From: Lachnospiraceae bacterium
Lineage (GTDB): Bacteria; Bacillota; Clostridia; Lachnospirales; Lachnospiraceae
DNA length: 37,800 nucleotides
Direction: 5' to 3'
Assembly (NCBI GenBank): GCA_016282435.1
Contig: JAEEKN010000190.1
Coordinates: 1 to 37,800, forward strand
Shown here: piece by piece, positions 852-22,178 of the stretch
Layout: each line of letters opens with the position of its first letter
Numbering within the stretch: the stretch's first letter is position 1
The notes under the pieces: model-generated
Databases searched by the model: none
The model's input: only the letters and a program-made list of their open reading frames with translations
What the model was told of the DNA's origin: nothing
Made by a program: the position numbers and the translations under genes

Positions 852-1613
852 ATGTTTACAAAAAGAATCATACCCTGTCTTGATGTTAAGGACGGAAGGG
901 TTGTTAAGGGAACTAATTTCATAAATCTTAGAGATGCGGGAGATCCGGTAGAAGTAGGAGCAAACTACAGTAAATGTGGAGCTGACGAGCTGGTGTTCCT
1001 TGATATTACGGCGTCATCCGACAAACGAAACACTACTGTAGATATGGTTAGAAAAGTAGCGGAAAATGTATTCATACCGTTTACTGTTGGTGGAGGGATC
1101 CGTACGGTAGATGATTTTCGTACAATACTTAGAGCAGGAGCGGATAAAGTAGCAGTTAATTCTGCGGCAATTGATAATCCTCAGATAATCAGTGATGCGG
1201 CTATGAAGTTCGGAAGCCAGTGTGTAGTCGTAGCTATCGATGCAAAAAGAAGAGCTGATGGAAATGGCTGGACCATCTACAAGCATGGCGGAAGAATAGA
1301 TATGGGTATCGATGCTGTAGAGTGGGGCCGTAAAGCGTATGAACTCGGAGCCGGTGAAATACTTCTAACAAGTATGGACTGTGACGGAACAAAAGCCGGA
1401 TATGACTGTGAACTTACCCGTGCAATCTCCGATGTCGTAGATATACCGGTTATAGCATCGGGCGGAGCAGGAACATTTGAACATTTCCTTGATGCGTTTG
1501 AACAAGGACATGCTGATGCCGTGCTTGCAGCTTCTCTTTTTCACTATAAAGAGATGGAAATTTCGGATTTGAAGAAATATCTTAAAGATAAAGGAATTTC
1601 AGTTAGAATGTGA
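852..1613 (+). CDS. hisF: Imidazole glycerol phosphate synthase, cyclase subunit
   Basis: [62 protein letters not shown]; adjacent to hisH. Confidence 0.98.
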
Positions 1614-1665: not shown

Positions 1666-1948
1666 CTCACTAAAGTTGAGAGCTTAAGAAGAAACTTTAA
1701 GGTGAGGGTGCGGAAGTGCAGGTATGGGATAAAACCATAAAGCGGCAGAGGATATGCATGATTTACGTACAATATCGGAATGAGGCAAAAATCGATTATC
1801 CGAATCGATTTTTGAGCGTAGTACAAGTGTGCCCGGTATCAAGCGGGCACACGATTGCAAGCGTCCGAAATGAAGATATGTACGGAAACATAGCATATCC
1901 CTGCGGTAGCGTAAACGGGTTTTAGACCATACCGGCATTTATGCACCC
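1666..1948. ncRNA. Candidate structured non-coding element (strand undetermined; 5' hairpin plus large branched inverted-repeat structure)
   Basis: Nested complementary segments: CTCAC-TAAAGTT/AACTTTA-GTGAG (1666-1706); GGGTGC/GCACCC (1706-1711/1943-1948); GGTATGG/CCATACC (1721-1727/1927-1933); TAAAACC/GGTTTTA (1730-1736/1918-1924); GCAG-GGATATGC/GCATATCC-CTGC (1745-1757/1893-1904); GTAC-ATATC/GATAT-GTAC (1767-1776/1875-1883); terminal hairpins AAAAATCGAT/ATCGATTTTT (1787-1813) and GTGTGCCCG/CGGGCACAC (1827-1852). No convincing ORF. Confidence 0.5.
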
Positions 1949-1966
1949 GTAAAATAGACATGATAC

Positions 1967-1997
1967 CAAAACAGGCTTCCCATAAAGAGAAGCCTGT
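1967..1997 (-). terminator. Rho-independent terminator for the minus-strand activase gene
   Basis: 9-bp stem ACAGGCTTC/GAAGCCTGT with a 9-nt loop; minus-strand read continues with TTTTGG. Confidence 0.75.
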
Positions 1998-2006
1998 AAC
2001 ATTTTC

Positions 2007-5000
2007 TTACTGCATCTTCCTCATCGCAGCCGAAAGCATCAGTTTGATACGGTTCAGCTGGTTGACTTCGCTGGCACCGGGATCGTAGTCGACAGCCACG
2101 ATATTAGACTCGGGATACTGACGCCTGAGCTCTTTGATCACACCCTTACCTACGATATGGTTCGGCAGGCATGCGAAAGGCTGAGCACATACGATATTCG
2201 GTGCACCGGATTTTATCAGTTCCACCATCTCGCCGGTCAGGAACCAACCTTCACCGGTCTGGTTACCGAGAGAGCAGATAGAAGAAGCCATCTCGGCCAG
2301 TTCTTCGATTCTGGCGGGAGGATCAAACCTCTTACTCTTTTCAAAGGCAAGACGTGATTCCTTACGACAGAACTCGATGATATTTATGATCATCTTGTTG
2401 AATTTAACATCTTTTTTGCTCTTACCCAGGCACTCATATTTGAACTTGGCATCGAATGAACAGTAAAGAATGAAATTGATAAGTTCGGGACAGATAACCT
2501 CTGCACCCTCTTTTTCCAGCTGCTCGATCAGATGATTATTTGCCATGGGAGCATATTTTACCAGAATTTCACCTACGATGCCGACTCTGGGCTTCTTGAT
2601 GCTCTCGTCGAGAGGCAGTTCATCAAACTCTTTTATGATATTTCTGACATTCTTTTTGTACTCGGACCAGAACAGAGTATATCTGAAATCCTTTCGGGAC
2701 AGAGACTTGCATACTATATCCAGCCACTTCTTGTGAAGAGCATTTGCTGAACCCGGAACAAGTTCGTAAGGCCTCGTACGGTAAAGAACCTTCTGGAAGA
2801 TATCACCGTAGCATAAAGCATGCATAACTTTGACTATCAGAGAAGGAGTAAACTTAAATCCGGGATTCTTCTCTATACCTGAGGTACTGATGGACAGAAC
2901 AGGAACCTGAGGCATACCTGCTTTTGCCAGAGCACGACGGATAAGACCTATATAGTTTGTAGCACGGCATCCGCCACCGGTCTGGGTATATATAACACCT
3001 ACTTTGTTAACATCGTATTTACCTGACTGAAGAGCCTGTATAACCTGACCTACAACTATAAGTGAAGGGTAGCAGGCATCATTGTTTACGTATTTAAGAC
3101 CGACATCTACAGCACTTCTGTCATCATTCTGAAGAATCTCAAGATGATAACCTTCCGAACGGATGGCAGCTTCGAGAACCTCAAAATGAATGGGAGACAT
3201 CTTGGGCGCTATCAGGGTATAATCCTTACGCATGGCCTTTGTGAATACAACTCTTTCAACCGCAGCTGAATGAACGTGGGGAACATAATGGTTCTTCTCA
3301 CGGTCCTTGATAGCGGAGAGGAGAGAACGGATCCTGATTCTGGCGGCACCTAAGTTGTTAACTTCATCAATCTTTAGTACAGTATATATCTTGCCCGAAG
3401 CATTCAAGATATCCGAAACACCATCTGTGGTCACGGCATCAAGACCGCAACCGAAAGAGTTGAGCTGAACGAGCTCCAGATTCTTCTGGGTACGTACAAA
3501 TGATGCGGCAGCGTAAAGACGTGAATGGTACATCCACTGATCGACAACTATTAGAGGACGGTCAACTTTTCCGAGATGTGACACACTGTCTTCGGTCAAA
3601 ACTGCTACGCCGTAAGAATTAATCATCTCGGGGATACCGTGGTTAATCTCGGGATCGATATGGTAGGGACGACCTGCCAGAACGATACCCTTCCTGCCGG
3701 TACGTCTCATATATTCGAGTGTCTCTTCGCCCTTGCGTTCAACATCACTTCTGGCACTGGCAAGTTCGATCCATGCCGCACGTGATGCCTGCATAACTTC
3801 GTCGGGAGTAAAATCATTGTAGAACGGTGCGTTTTTATCACAGAATATCTGTACCAGTCTGTTGGTGATGATATCTTCGCTTTCAAATGAAAGGAAAGGA
3901 TTGGCATAAACTATATCAGGGTCGCGAAGTTCTTCGACATTGTTCTTGATATTCTCACCGTATGAAGTTACTATAGGGCAGTTATAATGATTGCCCGCGC
4001 CTTCGGCCTCTTTTCTTTCATAAGGAATACAGGGATAGAAGATAAATTTGCATCCCTGTGAAAGCAGCCACATGATATGTCCGTGTGCCAGCTTTGCGGG
4101 GTAACATTCCGATTCTGAAGGAATGGATTCTATACCCATCTCATAAATTTTACGACTGGAGAGGGGAGAAACCACTACTTTATATTTTAATTTTGTAAAG
4201 AATGTAAACCAAAACGGATAGTTTTCATAAATATTCAGAACTCTGGGGATTCCGACAACGCCTCTTACAGCCTCTTTTTCAGGAAGAGGAGTGTAGCCGA
4301 ATATTCTCTCGAGTTTATAATCAAACAGGTTCGGGATGTTGTCCTTGTTCTTTTCTCCTCCGATACCTCTTTCACAGCGGTTACCGGATATAAAACGTCT
4401 GCCGTCGCTAAACTTGTTTATCGTCAGCATACATGTATTTGTACAACCCTTACATCTGCTCATGGATGTCTCAAATGTAAGAGCAGTGATCTCGTCGATC
4501 GTGAGCATGGTGGTTTTTAGCTCGGGTTCATAATCCCTGCGGGCTATGAGAGCTGCACCGAATGCACCCATGATACCGGCGATATCTGGACGGATACAGT
4601 CACATCCAAGGATTGTTTCAAGAGCACGCAGTACCGCATTGTTATAGAAGGTACCACCCTGAACTACGATGTGCTCACCGAGGTCTTTGGGATCTGTAAC
4701 CTTTATAACCTTGTATAAAGCGTTTTTGATGACCGAATAAGCAAGACCCGAAGAAATATCTGCTACGGTAGCGCCTTCCTTCTGTGCCTGCTTTACTTTG
4801 GAATTCATAAATACGGTACAACGGCTTCCGAGATCTATGGGATTCTCGGCAAATAACGCGATATTTGAAAAATCAGCTATTTCATAATCAAGTGATTTGG
4901 CAAAAGTCTCGATAAAGGAACCGCAGCCCGAAGAACATGCTTCGTTCAGCTGTACGGAATTAACTGCACCGTCCTTTATCCTGATGCACTTCATATCCTG

Positions 5001-6290
5001 GCCGCCTATATCGAGTATGCAGTCTACATCGGGATCAAAAAAAGCAGCAGCCTGATAATGAGCAACGGTCTCAACTTCACCCTGGTCGAGCATGAGGGCA
5101 GCCTTTATCAGGGCTTCGCCGTAACCGGTGGAGCATGATCTCACTATTTTGACGCCTTCCGGAAGATTTCCGTATATCTCCTTGATAGATCTGATAGCAG
5201 TCTTTAAGGGGCTTCCGTTGTTGTTGGAATAGAAAGAATACAGAAGTTCGCCCTTCTCGCCTACTAGAGCAACCTTTGTAGTAGTCGAACCGGCATCTAT
5301 ACCTAAGAATGCATTTCCTTTGTATGAGCTTAAATCAGCCTTTTTTACAGAATGGGAAGCATGTCTTTTCTTAAATGCCTCAAACTCATCCTCTGAAGAG
5401 AACAGAGGAGTCATTCTGGTAACTTCAAACTTTATATCCACATGGTTCCTAAGAGTGGTCATAAGGTCTTTGAGACTGAATATCTTTATATCCTTTATGT
5501 CCATCTGCTTTCCGCCGGGAAGCATGCAGGAATTAAGAGCTGCTCCGGTAGCCGCAAAAAGATGTGAATCGGCAGGTGAGATAGCAGTCTCATCGGTAAG
5601 CTTAAGAGTTCTGATAAATGCAGCTTTAAGTTCCGAAAGGAATGTCAGAGGTCCTCCGAGAAAGGCAACCTTTCCTCTGATGGGCTTGCCGCATGCCAGA
5701 CCGGAGATGGTCTGGTTTACAACTGCCTGGAAGATAGATGCGGAAAGATCGGGCTTTGTAGCACCTTCATTTATAAGGGGCTGTATATCGGTCTTTGCAA
5801 ATACACCGCATCTGGCAGCTATAGGGTATATGGCTTTATAACTTTTTGCATATTCATTGAGTCCTGCCGCATCTGTCTTCAACAGTGAAGCCATCTGGTC
5901 GATAAAGGATCCGGTACCACCGGCACAGATACCGTTCATACGCTGCTCTATGGTGGAGCCGAAGTATATGATCTTCGCATCCTCACCACCAAGCTCTATG
6001 GCTACATCGGGTTTTACGGGTAGCTGTTCAACAGAAGTGGATACGGCGATAACTTCCTGAGTAAAGGGAATACCCAGAAAATCAGCGATGGCAAGACCGC
6101 CGGAGCCGGTGATAGAGCATGCGGATTCTATATCAGGATATTTTTTCAGGCACTCATCGATGAGGTCTGCTAAAGTTTCCTGAATATTCGCAAAATGCCT
6201 TCTGTAATCTGAAAACAGTTTGTTGTTTTTCTCGTCGAGTAACATTACCTTGACGGTTGTAGAACCGATGTCAATACCAAACTTATACAT
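2007..6290 (-). CDS. Acyl-CoA dehydratase activase (2-hydroxyglutaryl-CoA dehydratase activator family; two BadF/BadG/BcrA/BcrD ATPase domains plus C-terminal DUF2229/dehydratase-like region)
   Basis: 1427 aa. Two ASKHA phosphate-1 motifs ([33 protein letters not shown]), [13 protein letters not shown] and [23 protein letters not shown] and RCTVFMNSK, and a C-terminal Cys-containing region. Confidence 0.93.
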
Positions 6291-20856: not shown

Positions 20857-21628
20857 ACCTTATGCTTTGGCCGTGGATGAGCTGAAAGTAAAGTTTGAGC
20901 ATGTTCAGAACTCGTACAGAAATGCCGGATTATATTCACCCATAGAACAGATTTACGGGCGTGTAAAATCTATATCGTCATTGCTTGAGAAAGTTCAGAA
21001 GAAGCATATATCTCTCGATGATATAGAGGATAATATAGATGACATAGCCGGAATAAGGATAATATGCCAGTTCGTGGAGGATATATACAAGGTAGCCGAA
21101 CTGATAAACAAGAGAAGCGATATGATAGTCATAGAGGAGACTGACTATGTAAAGAATCAGAAGTCTTCCGGTTACAGAAGTTATCATATGGTGGTAAAGT
21201 ATGTGGTGGAAACCATAAACGGACCCAAGGAGCTTCATGTAGAAATCCAGATCAGAACCCTGGCTATGAATTTCTGGGCGACTATAGAGCATTCACTGCA
21301 GTATAAGTACAAGCAGAACATGCCTGCTTCACTGCGTGCCAGACTTCTTAAAGCAGCTGATGCCATCGGAGTCCTTGACAGTGAGATGGCTGAGGTACGT
21401 GAGGAAATCATGGATGCCCAGAACACATTTACATTACGTACGAATCTTGTGGCAGACATACTGAACAATATCCAGAATCTGTATAAGGCTGCTAACAAGC
21501 GTGAGATTATAAAGATACAGGATGAATTCTTTAAGATATATGCATCGGAAGATCTGGAGCATCTGGAACGTTTTGCAAAGGAACTTGATACCATTTCGGA
21601 AGGCTACAGAGCACAGAGCTTGAGGTAG
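20825..21628 (+). CDS. Small alarmone (p)ppGpp synthetase, RelQ/YjbM (SasB) type
   Basis: PYALAVDELKVKFE, SPIEQIYGRVKSISSLLEK, DIAGIRIICQFVEDIY, VKNQKSSGYRSYHMVVKY, HVEIQIRTLAMNFWATIEHSLQYKY; no HD domain. Overlaps the LCP2 stop by 32 bp. Confidence 0.95.
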   Translation: MEIQMWREILEPYALAVDELKVKFEHVQNSYRNAGLYSPIEQIYGRVKSISSLLEKVQKKHISLDDIEDNIDDIAGIRIICQFVEDIYKVAELINKRSDMIVIEETDYVKNQKSSGYRSYHMVVKYVVETINGPKELHVEIQIRTLAMNFWATIEHSLQYKYKQNMPASLRARLLKAADAIGVLDSEMAEVREEIMDAQNTFTLRTNLVADILNNIQNLYKAANKREIIKIQDEFFKIYASEDLEHLERFAKELDTISEGYRAQSLR

Positions 21629-21641
21629 TAGATGAGAAATT

Positions 21642-21745
21642 TTATACTCGTTAAAGTTTTTAATTACACCTCATCCGGCTGCTTTGCAGCCACCTTCTCC
21701 TCAAGGGGAGGCTTAAAGTGAAAATATATACGTTAATGAGTATAA
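21642..21745. repeat. Repeat element A: MITE-like, 104 bp, 13-bp terminal inverted repeats (12/13)
   Basis: TTATACTCGTTAA (21642-21654) versus TTAATGAGTATAA (21733-21745), with internal hairpins GGCTGC-ttt-GCAGCC and CTCC-tcaa-GGGGAG. Degenerate relatives at 22182-22211 and (reverse) 25972-26026. Confidence 0.65.
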
Positions 21746-21895
21746 CAAAACAGAAGATATCCCCCACCTCTTAGCGTAGCGAAGGTGGGGGAAAATCTTC
21801 GTTTCAGGCGGGGTTAAAGCCCCGCCTGAAATGAGATGCGAAGCATCGTTTTGTTACCGAGGAAACGCTGAAAGCGTTTTCGAGGTGACATTGAC
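21741..21895 (+). repeat. Repeat element B copy 1 (with internal 77-bp insertion)
   Basis: TATAACAAAACAGAAGA…GATGCGAAGCATCGTTTTGTTACCGAGGAAACGCTGAAAGCGTTTTCGAGGTGACATTGAC; the same unit occurs at 24565 and 27188. Confidence 0.8.
21758..21834. repeat. 77-bp double-hairpin insertion inside repeat B copy 1
   Basis: CCCCCACCT…AAGGTGGGGG and TTTCAGGCGGGG-ttaaag-CCCCGCCTGAAA; absent from repeat B copies 2 and 3. Confidence 0.65.
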
Positions 21896-21900
21896 TTAAT

Positions 21901-21944
21901 AAAAGACAGGGGAGGGCAGATATGTACCGATTCCTGTCTTTTTT
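21901..21944 (+). terminator. Rho-independent terminator of the LCP/alarmone synthetase operon
   Basis: AAAAGACAGG…CCTGTCTTTTTT. Confidence 0.85.
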
Positions 21945-21979
21945 GAGGTGATAATAACAGTTATACCGAATTAGTGTAT

Positions 21980-22178
21980 TTATTCACGTTACTATTCACA
22001 GCTGTTCAAAACGCACTCATAAACCTTCCGTCTGCGCCGGAAGTCGTCGCATTCGCGACTTATGTTTACTCGTGAGTTTTGTCCAGCTTCCACTGCTTAA
22101 TCTGCATAAATGCCTGCCTGCAAGCAAGCTTGCGTCAGGCATTCACGGCAGATTAGCTGTGAATAGTAACTTATTCAC
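21980..22178. mobile_element. Repeat element D: 183-bp MITE-like element (21988-22170) with perfect 16-bp TIRs and flanking 8-bp direct repeats
   Basis: GTTACTATTCACAGCT (21988-22003) and its exact reverse complement AGCTGTGAATAGTAAC (22155-22170); TTATTCAC directly flanks both ends (21980-21987, 22171-22178). Two internal cruciform arms; no ORF. Confidence 0.75.

Follow-up and report, generated by a model that had tools for sequence, protein, structure and literature searches.

The window, by which we mean the whole stretch of DNA analyzed (37,800 nucleotides; positions 1-37,800 of the forward strand of contig JAEEKN010000190.1, from the assembly GCA_016282435.1 of a rumen Lachnospiraceae bacterium), carries near its start two convergent genes which, following an earlier note on this DNA, we take to be hisF and the gene of a 2-hydroxyacyl-CoA dehydratase activase-type protein (hereafter activase), the latter having orthologues in all 24 genomes of the genus. 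Between the hisF stop codon (1613) and that of the activase gene (2007) lies a large branched structure, hereafter called the rod (table 1), flanked on each side by one terminator-like hairpin, that of hisF occupying 1619-1660. The earlier note had counted a separate 5' hairpin as part of the structure; this small hairpin (TCACTAAAGTT..AACTTTAAGGTGA, 1670-1705) is absent from the other copies described below and falls outside the rod, so that the conserved unit spans about 1705-1949.

Table 1. Features of the rod and its flanks in the window (helices numbered as in the text)
Feature	Position	Strand	Remarks
hisF (253 aa)	852..1613	+	ORF; gene points at the rod
Whole rod (outer arms and core)	1705..1949	+	fold z = -11.76; arms pair in every copy
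Left (5') outer arm	1706..1727	+	pairs with 1927-1948; sequence unique to the window copy
Outer pair GGGTGC/GCACCC	1706-1711 / 1943-1948	+	read from sequence
Outer pair GGTATGG/CCATACC	1721-1727 / 1927-1933	+	read from sequence
Conserved core	1725..1927	+	R1 match, 201 bits, E = 9.6e-50, the window copy being one of the ten R1 model sequences
Inner closing stem, TAAAACC strand, conserved	1730..1736	+	helix 1
Middle stem, 5' strand GCAG-a-GGATATGC	1745..1757	+	helices 2 and 3
Variable upper rod stem, 5' strand GTAC-AATATC	1767..1776	+	helix 5
Head hairpin A	about 1786..1814	+	helix 7
Head hairpin B, loop GTATCAAG	1827..1852	+	helix 9
Variable upper rod stem, 3' strand GATATGTAC	1875..1883	+	helix 5
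Middle stem, 3' strand GCATATCC-CTGC	1893..1904	+	helices 2 and 3
Inner closing stem, GGTTTTA strand, conserved	1918..1924	+	helix 1
Right (3') outer arm	1927..1948	+	pairs with 1706-1727
Terminator-like hairpin of the activase gene	1971..2000	-	between activase stop and rod; from the fold
Activase-type protein (1427 aa)	2007..6290	-	ORF; stop located 3' of the rod

Folding of positions 1640-2000 gave -145.9 kcal/mol (z = -12.07), a value reached by none of 100 shuffled sequences, and the rod alone (1700-1955) was equally unmatched by 200 shuffles; the fold of the reverse strand is strong as well, though weaker than this (z = -9.34). The seven complementary segment pairs listed in the earlier note are all present, in the order given there, and recur in the minimum-energy fold. 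The local hairpin TATGG..CCATA, proposed as a competitor of the outer stem, is not conserved, because its arm sequence differs in every copy. A pseudoknot between the loop of hairpin A (TTATCC) and GGATAA suits several copies and was rejected, since it fails in those with other loops. Searches of Rfam 15 returned no match in the window or in six related loci, and at relaxed stringency (E up to 10) chance-level matches alone, none covering the rod; these searches rule out a known RNA family, and the rod is a previously uncatalogued element in the sense that Rfam 15 does not hold it. No match was found in a phage collection or a plasmid collection, which speaks against a phage or plasmid element as far as these two collections reach, and we found no description of the rods in the open-licence literature.

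The rod is not confined to this locus. A DNA search of its own genome recovered ten good diverged copies and fragments (74-83% identity), and a covariance model built from ten copies (R1) retrieved 11 full or near-full copies there. Within the genus R1 had 1-34 matches in each of 9 of the 24 genomes and none in the other 15; 37 genomes of other genera, drawn from the same sample, gave no R1 match. In total 119 distinct copies were gathered over 10 genomes, almost all of which belong to a single clade of rumen Lachnospiraceae, and the tree of the activase gene places the rod-positive genomes in one clade of the genus with one negative member, the coding DNA of this clade being 76-90% identical. 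A strict pattern scan of GTDB representatives hit ruminant metagenome-assembled genomes alone, all but one of them named Lachnospiraceae; a metagenome-assembled genome labelled Ruminococcus, with the record title Ruminococcus sp. RGIG8224 (L096), contains one rod copy with a flank resembling a Lachnospiraceae site and so may be a matter of contamination or naming.

Beyond the genus, R1 weakly matched three other genera, in each of which a closer search gave 2 to 14 matches. A second model (R2), constructed from one of these genera and showing double changes in 30 of its 47 pairs, has at least 20 matches in all six genomes of its own genus, and in return matches the window genome (E = 2.5e-10 to 1.7e-6) and positions 1741-1913 of the window (E = 5.3e-6). 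Matches extend to 11 further genera, all of them Lachnospiraceae, so that the design occurs in 12 genera including that of the window; the calibration behind the E-values was short, so that least confidence attaches to single weak matches (G093, G260, G176), and for the two weaker matches in G177 the opposite strand gives the better fold. Of 292 genomes sampled across the class, the window genome alone was matched. Those distant relatives whose folds were computed form giant rods topped by a head of two hairpins, in which the second loop is mostly CAUCA. Elsewhere in the window, the intergenic region 21700-22000, located 3' of an ORF ending at 21628, folds with high stability into multiple hairpins (-123.5 kcal/mol, z = -12.18) but is not identified as a rod copy by R1 or R2.

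Pairing is under selection in these copies. In an alignment of 110 copies standard pairs make up 95.4% of cells, double changes occur in 52 of 59 pairs, and the covariation score is 0.411 versus 0.156 for shuffled alignments (0 of 500) and at most 0.088 for slid partners, values that lean towards structure because the alignment was fitted to the model. Every helix of the rod covaries: the inner closing stem (helix 1) is 98.5% paired with double changes in all seven pairs, helix 7 is 99.9% paired with double changes in 10 of its 12 pairs, helix 9 has double changes in 10 of 10, and the variable upper stem (helix 5) is 88.9% paired. The loop of hairpin B reads AUC[AG] in all 99 copies of the window clade that were measured. 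Tests independent of the model agree with the alignment. Left arms share 30% identity between copies, which is near random; native arm duplexes have -41.5 kcal/mol versus -14.9 kcal/mol for swapped arms, the arms pairing within each copy. Along 72 orthologous pairs we counted 845 double changes that preserve pairing versus about 149 expected from the same divergence, numbers that give the size of the effect and not a probability, since the pairs overlap and share ancestry. Because paired bases change together between copies, cells appear to preserve the folded shape and not the sequence.

The conserved fold is that of the + strand. The + strand folded better than the - strand in 72 of 75 comparisons. 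When folding was restricted to Watson-Crick pairs, so that neither strand was favoured, mismatches within + strand helices were G.U (G.T in DNA) in 112 cases versus A.C in 55, and A.G in 82 versus C.T in 9; unpaired bases on this strand are 43% A and 11% C. Such one-strand tolerance of G.U and purine-rich mismatches fits RNA but could also reflect single-stranded DNA.

The copies have a characteristic genomic position. The 3' end of the rod faces the stop codon of the right-hand gene in 83 of the 113 copies for which such a gene was called (p = 6e-7), the 5' end lies next to a stop codon in 47 of 102 without bias, and 27 of the gaps holding rods are convergent versus 6 divergent. Most copies abut a gene to which their favoured strand is antisense, and in 46 it is antisense to both neighbours. 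Genes examined next to rods are of ordinary kinds (for example gyrA-like, carB-like, IF-2, MTHFR and FlhB). Twenty-seven sites are common to two to five species, with the interior lying in opposite orientation between species at about five of them; in the best-read case the arms remain in place. The hisF-activase site itself differs among relatives of the window genome: G003 carries a rod oriented as in the window, in G008 the rod follows the activase stop, G001 retains a degraded rod and G006 an arm remnant, while the junction is empty in three sister species (G010, G016 and G019). The rod is thus multi-copy, covarying, selected on one strand and retained at the same sites across species. The observation reported in the earlier note is confirmed, and its interpretation as an ncRNA gene is supported in part: what it took for a single gene between hisF and activase is one member of a dispersed family.

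Several other arrangements were seen at individual loci. One rod of G003 (L125) is flanked on both sides by several degenerate copies of the arm motif GACGGGCGGCAGGGATGGCTG, as if arms alone had multiplied. Two rod-less members of the genus carry other long hairpins, different in sequence, after the same activase gene (L129 in G023 and L132 in G011). A G006 contig (C63) that could be read as a 4-kb composite between half elements was discarded as such: its ends share exactly 141 nt, an identity better explained by an assembly break in near-identical copies. The same contig encodes a putative DNA cytosine methyltransferase and a following ORF (L051).

Rods also vary in their parts. Some copies have no head, retaining the long arms and the TAAAACC/GGTTTTA stem, and others have one to three extra head hairpins; the heads with extra hairpins at L063, L064 and L065, two of which share a TATGTCGTAAGGAGGGGCCCACTA hairpin, suggest module insertion. 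Back-to-back inverted rod pairs are present in several genomes. In the distant genus of G343 the rod has apparently spread recently, for this genome has 18 matches, many nearly identical, in differing surroundings. Most G343 copies have the 26-bp palindrome GTTTCATAAAGTATACTTTATGAAAC on both sides, as a rule 321-326 bp apart, and two tandem rods share the middle palindrome site; the palindrome occurs 0 times in 1.13 Mb of other loci and resembles the core site of a site-specific recombinase, which is a predicted role. In G343 such palindromes also bound other short repeats, about 240 and 390 bp in length (L302, L306 and L311), which adjoin rods and form short arrays with them.

Comparison with known systems places the rods near several classes of bacterial repeats. 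Like REP sequences and REPINs, rods are extragenic, dispersed and hairpin-forming, with compensatory stem changes, and occur as inverted doublets; hairpins of the former have been considered as single-stranded DNA or mRNA, and REPINs, whose stems also show compensatory changes, are thought to move via RAYT enzymes (Accession PMC3116915). Unlike them, rods are about 250-350 nt long, have a branched head and show variable ends with a conserved interior, the reverse of the REPIN pattern; no RAYT gene lay beside a rod in eight loci. At about 100-200 bp, ERIC and other MITE-like repeats are shorter; they fold as RNA and can affect mRNA stability, and the effects of ERIC depend on orientation (PMC2229807, PMC10969869). 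Rods share with ERIC and the neisserial MITE-like repeats an intergenic, palindromic nature, tens of copies and location at gene 3' ends (PMC2229807, PMC10969869); as described, however, the enterobacterial and neisserial repeats are set apart by conserved terminal repeats and target duplications. In pneumococcus, BOX, RUP and SPRITE favour convergent gaps, and like rods they are structured, over-represented between convergent genes and spread in the past but now slowly, BOX being modular as rod heads are; they differ in host and size, and copy-specific arms have no apparent counterpart among them (PMC3049150).

Large RNAs of Rfam such as raiA, ROOL, GOLLD, HEARO and 6S resemble the rod in their large covarying RNA-like fold without ORF, but the rod has no Rfam 15 match. 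Invertons likewise have an interior, here of about 200 bp, between inverted repeats and an orientation that differs between species at some sites; in rods, however, the conserved TAAAACC/GGTTTTA is only 7 bp and the arms change from locus to locus, which makes a common recombinase site in the window clade doubtful. By analogy, rods may work somewhat like REPIN, ERIC and BOX-type repeats, yet they lack the defining traits of each.

On balance we favour, at a confidence falling just short of even, a dispersed non-autonomous element whose + strand RNA rod is kept at gene 3' ends and has a cis role at the boundary of transcription units. The window sequence would be one copy of such an extragenic Lachnospiraceae element, a rod of 250-350 nt with arms specific to species, locus and copy and a two-hairpin head. 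Copies would spread by an enzyme encoded elsewhere, and resident ones would be kept because their + strand forms the rod as RNA; we infer that the rod is kept as a strand-specific fold, probably as RNA, and transcription is predicted. The head loops (AUCA in hairpin B, a CC-containing one in hairpin A) may be the contacts for a common factor, with the arms as no more than a stiff duplex. The least certain step is a cis action of this RNA where transcription units reach their 3' boundary, which might consist in blocking or processing transcripts that enter the 3' end of the neighbouring gene; its weakness is that most copies have their favoured strand antisense to the gene they abut, an orientation that makes a cis role in the mRNAs of those genes awkward.

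A mobile element of single-stranded DNA, whose + strand would fold while DNA is replicated and present its head to a trans-acting enzyme, so that selection is for mobility and not for a cellular role, is unlikely but deserves serious weight. It would account for the many copies, their patchy distribution across the genus, the inverted back-to-back pairs, the selection on one strand and the near-identical G343 copies between palindromes. Selection for transposition alone does not explain, however, why pairing is kept at shared sites in species whose coding DNA differs by 10-20%, and the termini are unconserved in the window clade. A search for movers, covering Y1 transposase and reverse transcriptase families, found RAYT-like genes in 12 of the 24 genus genomes, with no rod-like hairpin beside the eight RAYT-like loci of element-bearing genomes; RAYT or a reverse transcriptase was accordingly rejected as the mover, the genes being present in about half of the genus and unlinked to rods.

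We regard as distinctly improbable that every rod is a small RNA gene of its own, the copies together making up a family of structured RNAs that act in trans and bind a protein or RNA partner through the head, even if head loops conserved across genera, freely varying stems and A-rich unpaired positions would suit it. TATAAT-like motifs are not enriched upstream of the copies (130 forward versus 118 reverse), and a T-run within 12 nt follows 3 of 107 copies on the + strand and 16 of 107 on the - strand, without enrichment of T-runs or terminators and without the hairpin followed by a T-run that marks intrinsic terminators; an independent RNA gene is therefore not supported. The position next to stop codons is also unexpected for independent genes, and at the same site in sister species the rod is simply absent. 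A role of the arms as guides to other genes was rejected, the arm part of the query having given short chance-level matches alone in the search of the own genome.

That the rod is a neutral long palindrome, its arms corrected by template switching without any function, is very doubtful. The interior inverted at several shared sites with arms staying in place is what inverted repeats would produce, and head-less mini forms do have perfect arms; passive correction, however, cannot tell strands apart, so the strong strand bias of the mismatches argues against it, as do internal loops that are conserved instead of corrected to perfect pairing and the fixed loop of hairpin B. The MITE alternative raised in the earlier note stood as regards multiple copies but not near-identity (in the window genome) or target duplication, and a classical MITE mobilised by an IS transposase via terminal inverted repeats, although consistent with small, dispersed, hairpin-forming, intergenic copies in more convergent than divergent gaps and with empty sites, is scarcely credible in the window clade, since conservation is lowest at the ends (column identity 0.28-0.35 versus 0.5-0.83 in the core), direct repeats outside the arms equal the swapped control over 107 copies with no target duplication signal, in keeping with the absence of terminal direct repeats stated in that note, and no conserved terminal inverted repeats are common to the copies, the arms being inverted repeats only within a copy.

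The favoured reading, an RNA rod kept at gene 3' ends, can be extended to an as yet undescribed Lachnospiraceae-wide class of mobile cassettes that would settle at gene 3' ends and then persist as strand-specific RNA rods, their invariant head of two hairpins being recognised by a dedicated factor and their arms able to adopt whatever sequence is self-complementary, a possibility we advance tentatively and still short of an even chance. As a rule, dispersed bacterial repeats are identified through conserved ends, and their folding is regarded as incidental. The rods present the contrary situation: their end sequences vary freely whereas the fold endures, with a preference for one strand, and this design is found again across genera of a family that is major in the rumen and gut. 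Should single-stranded DNA be the answer, the rods would point to a mobile system guided by shape and not by the sequence of the ends; should the + strand RNA exist, each genome would hold an unannotated structured 3' element at tens of loci.
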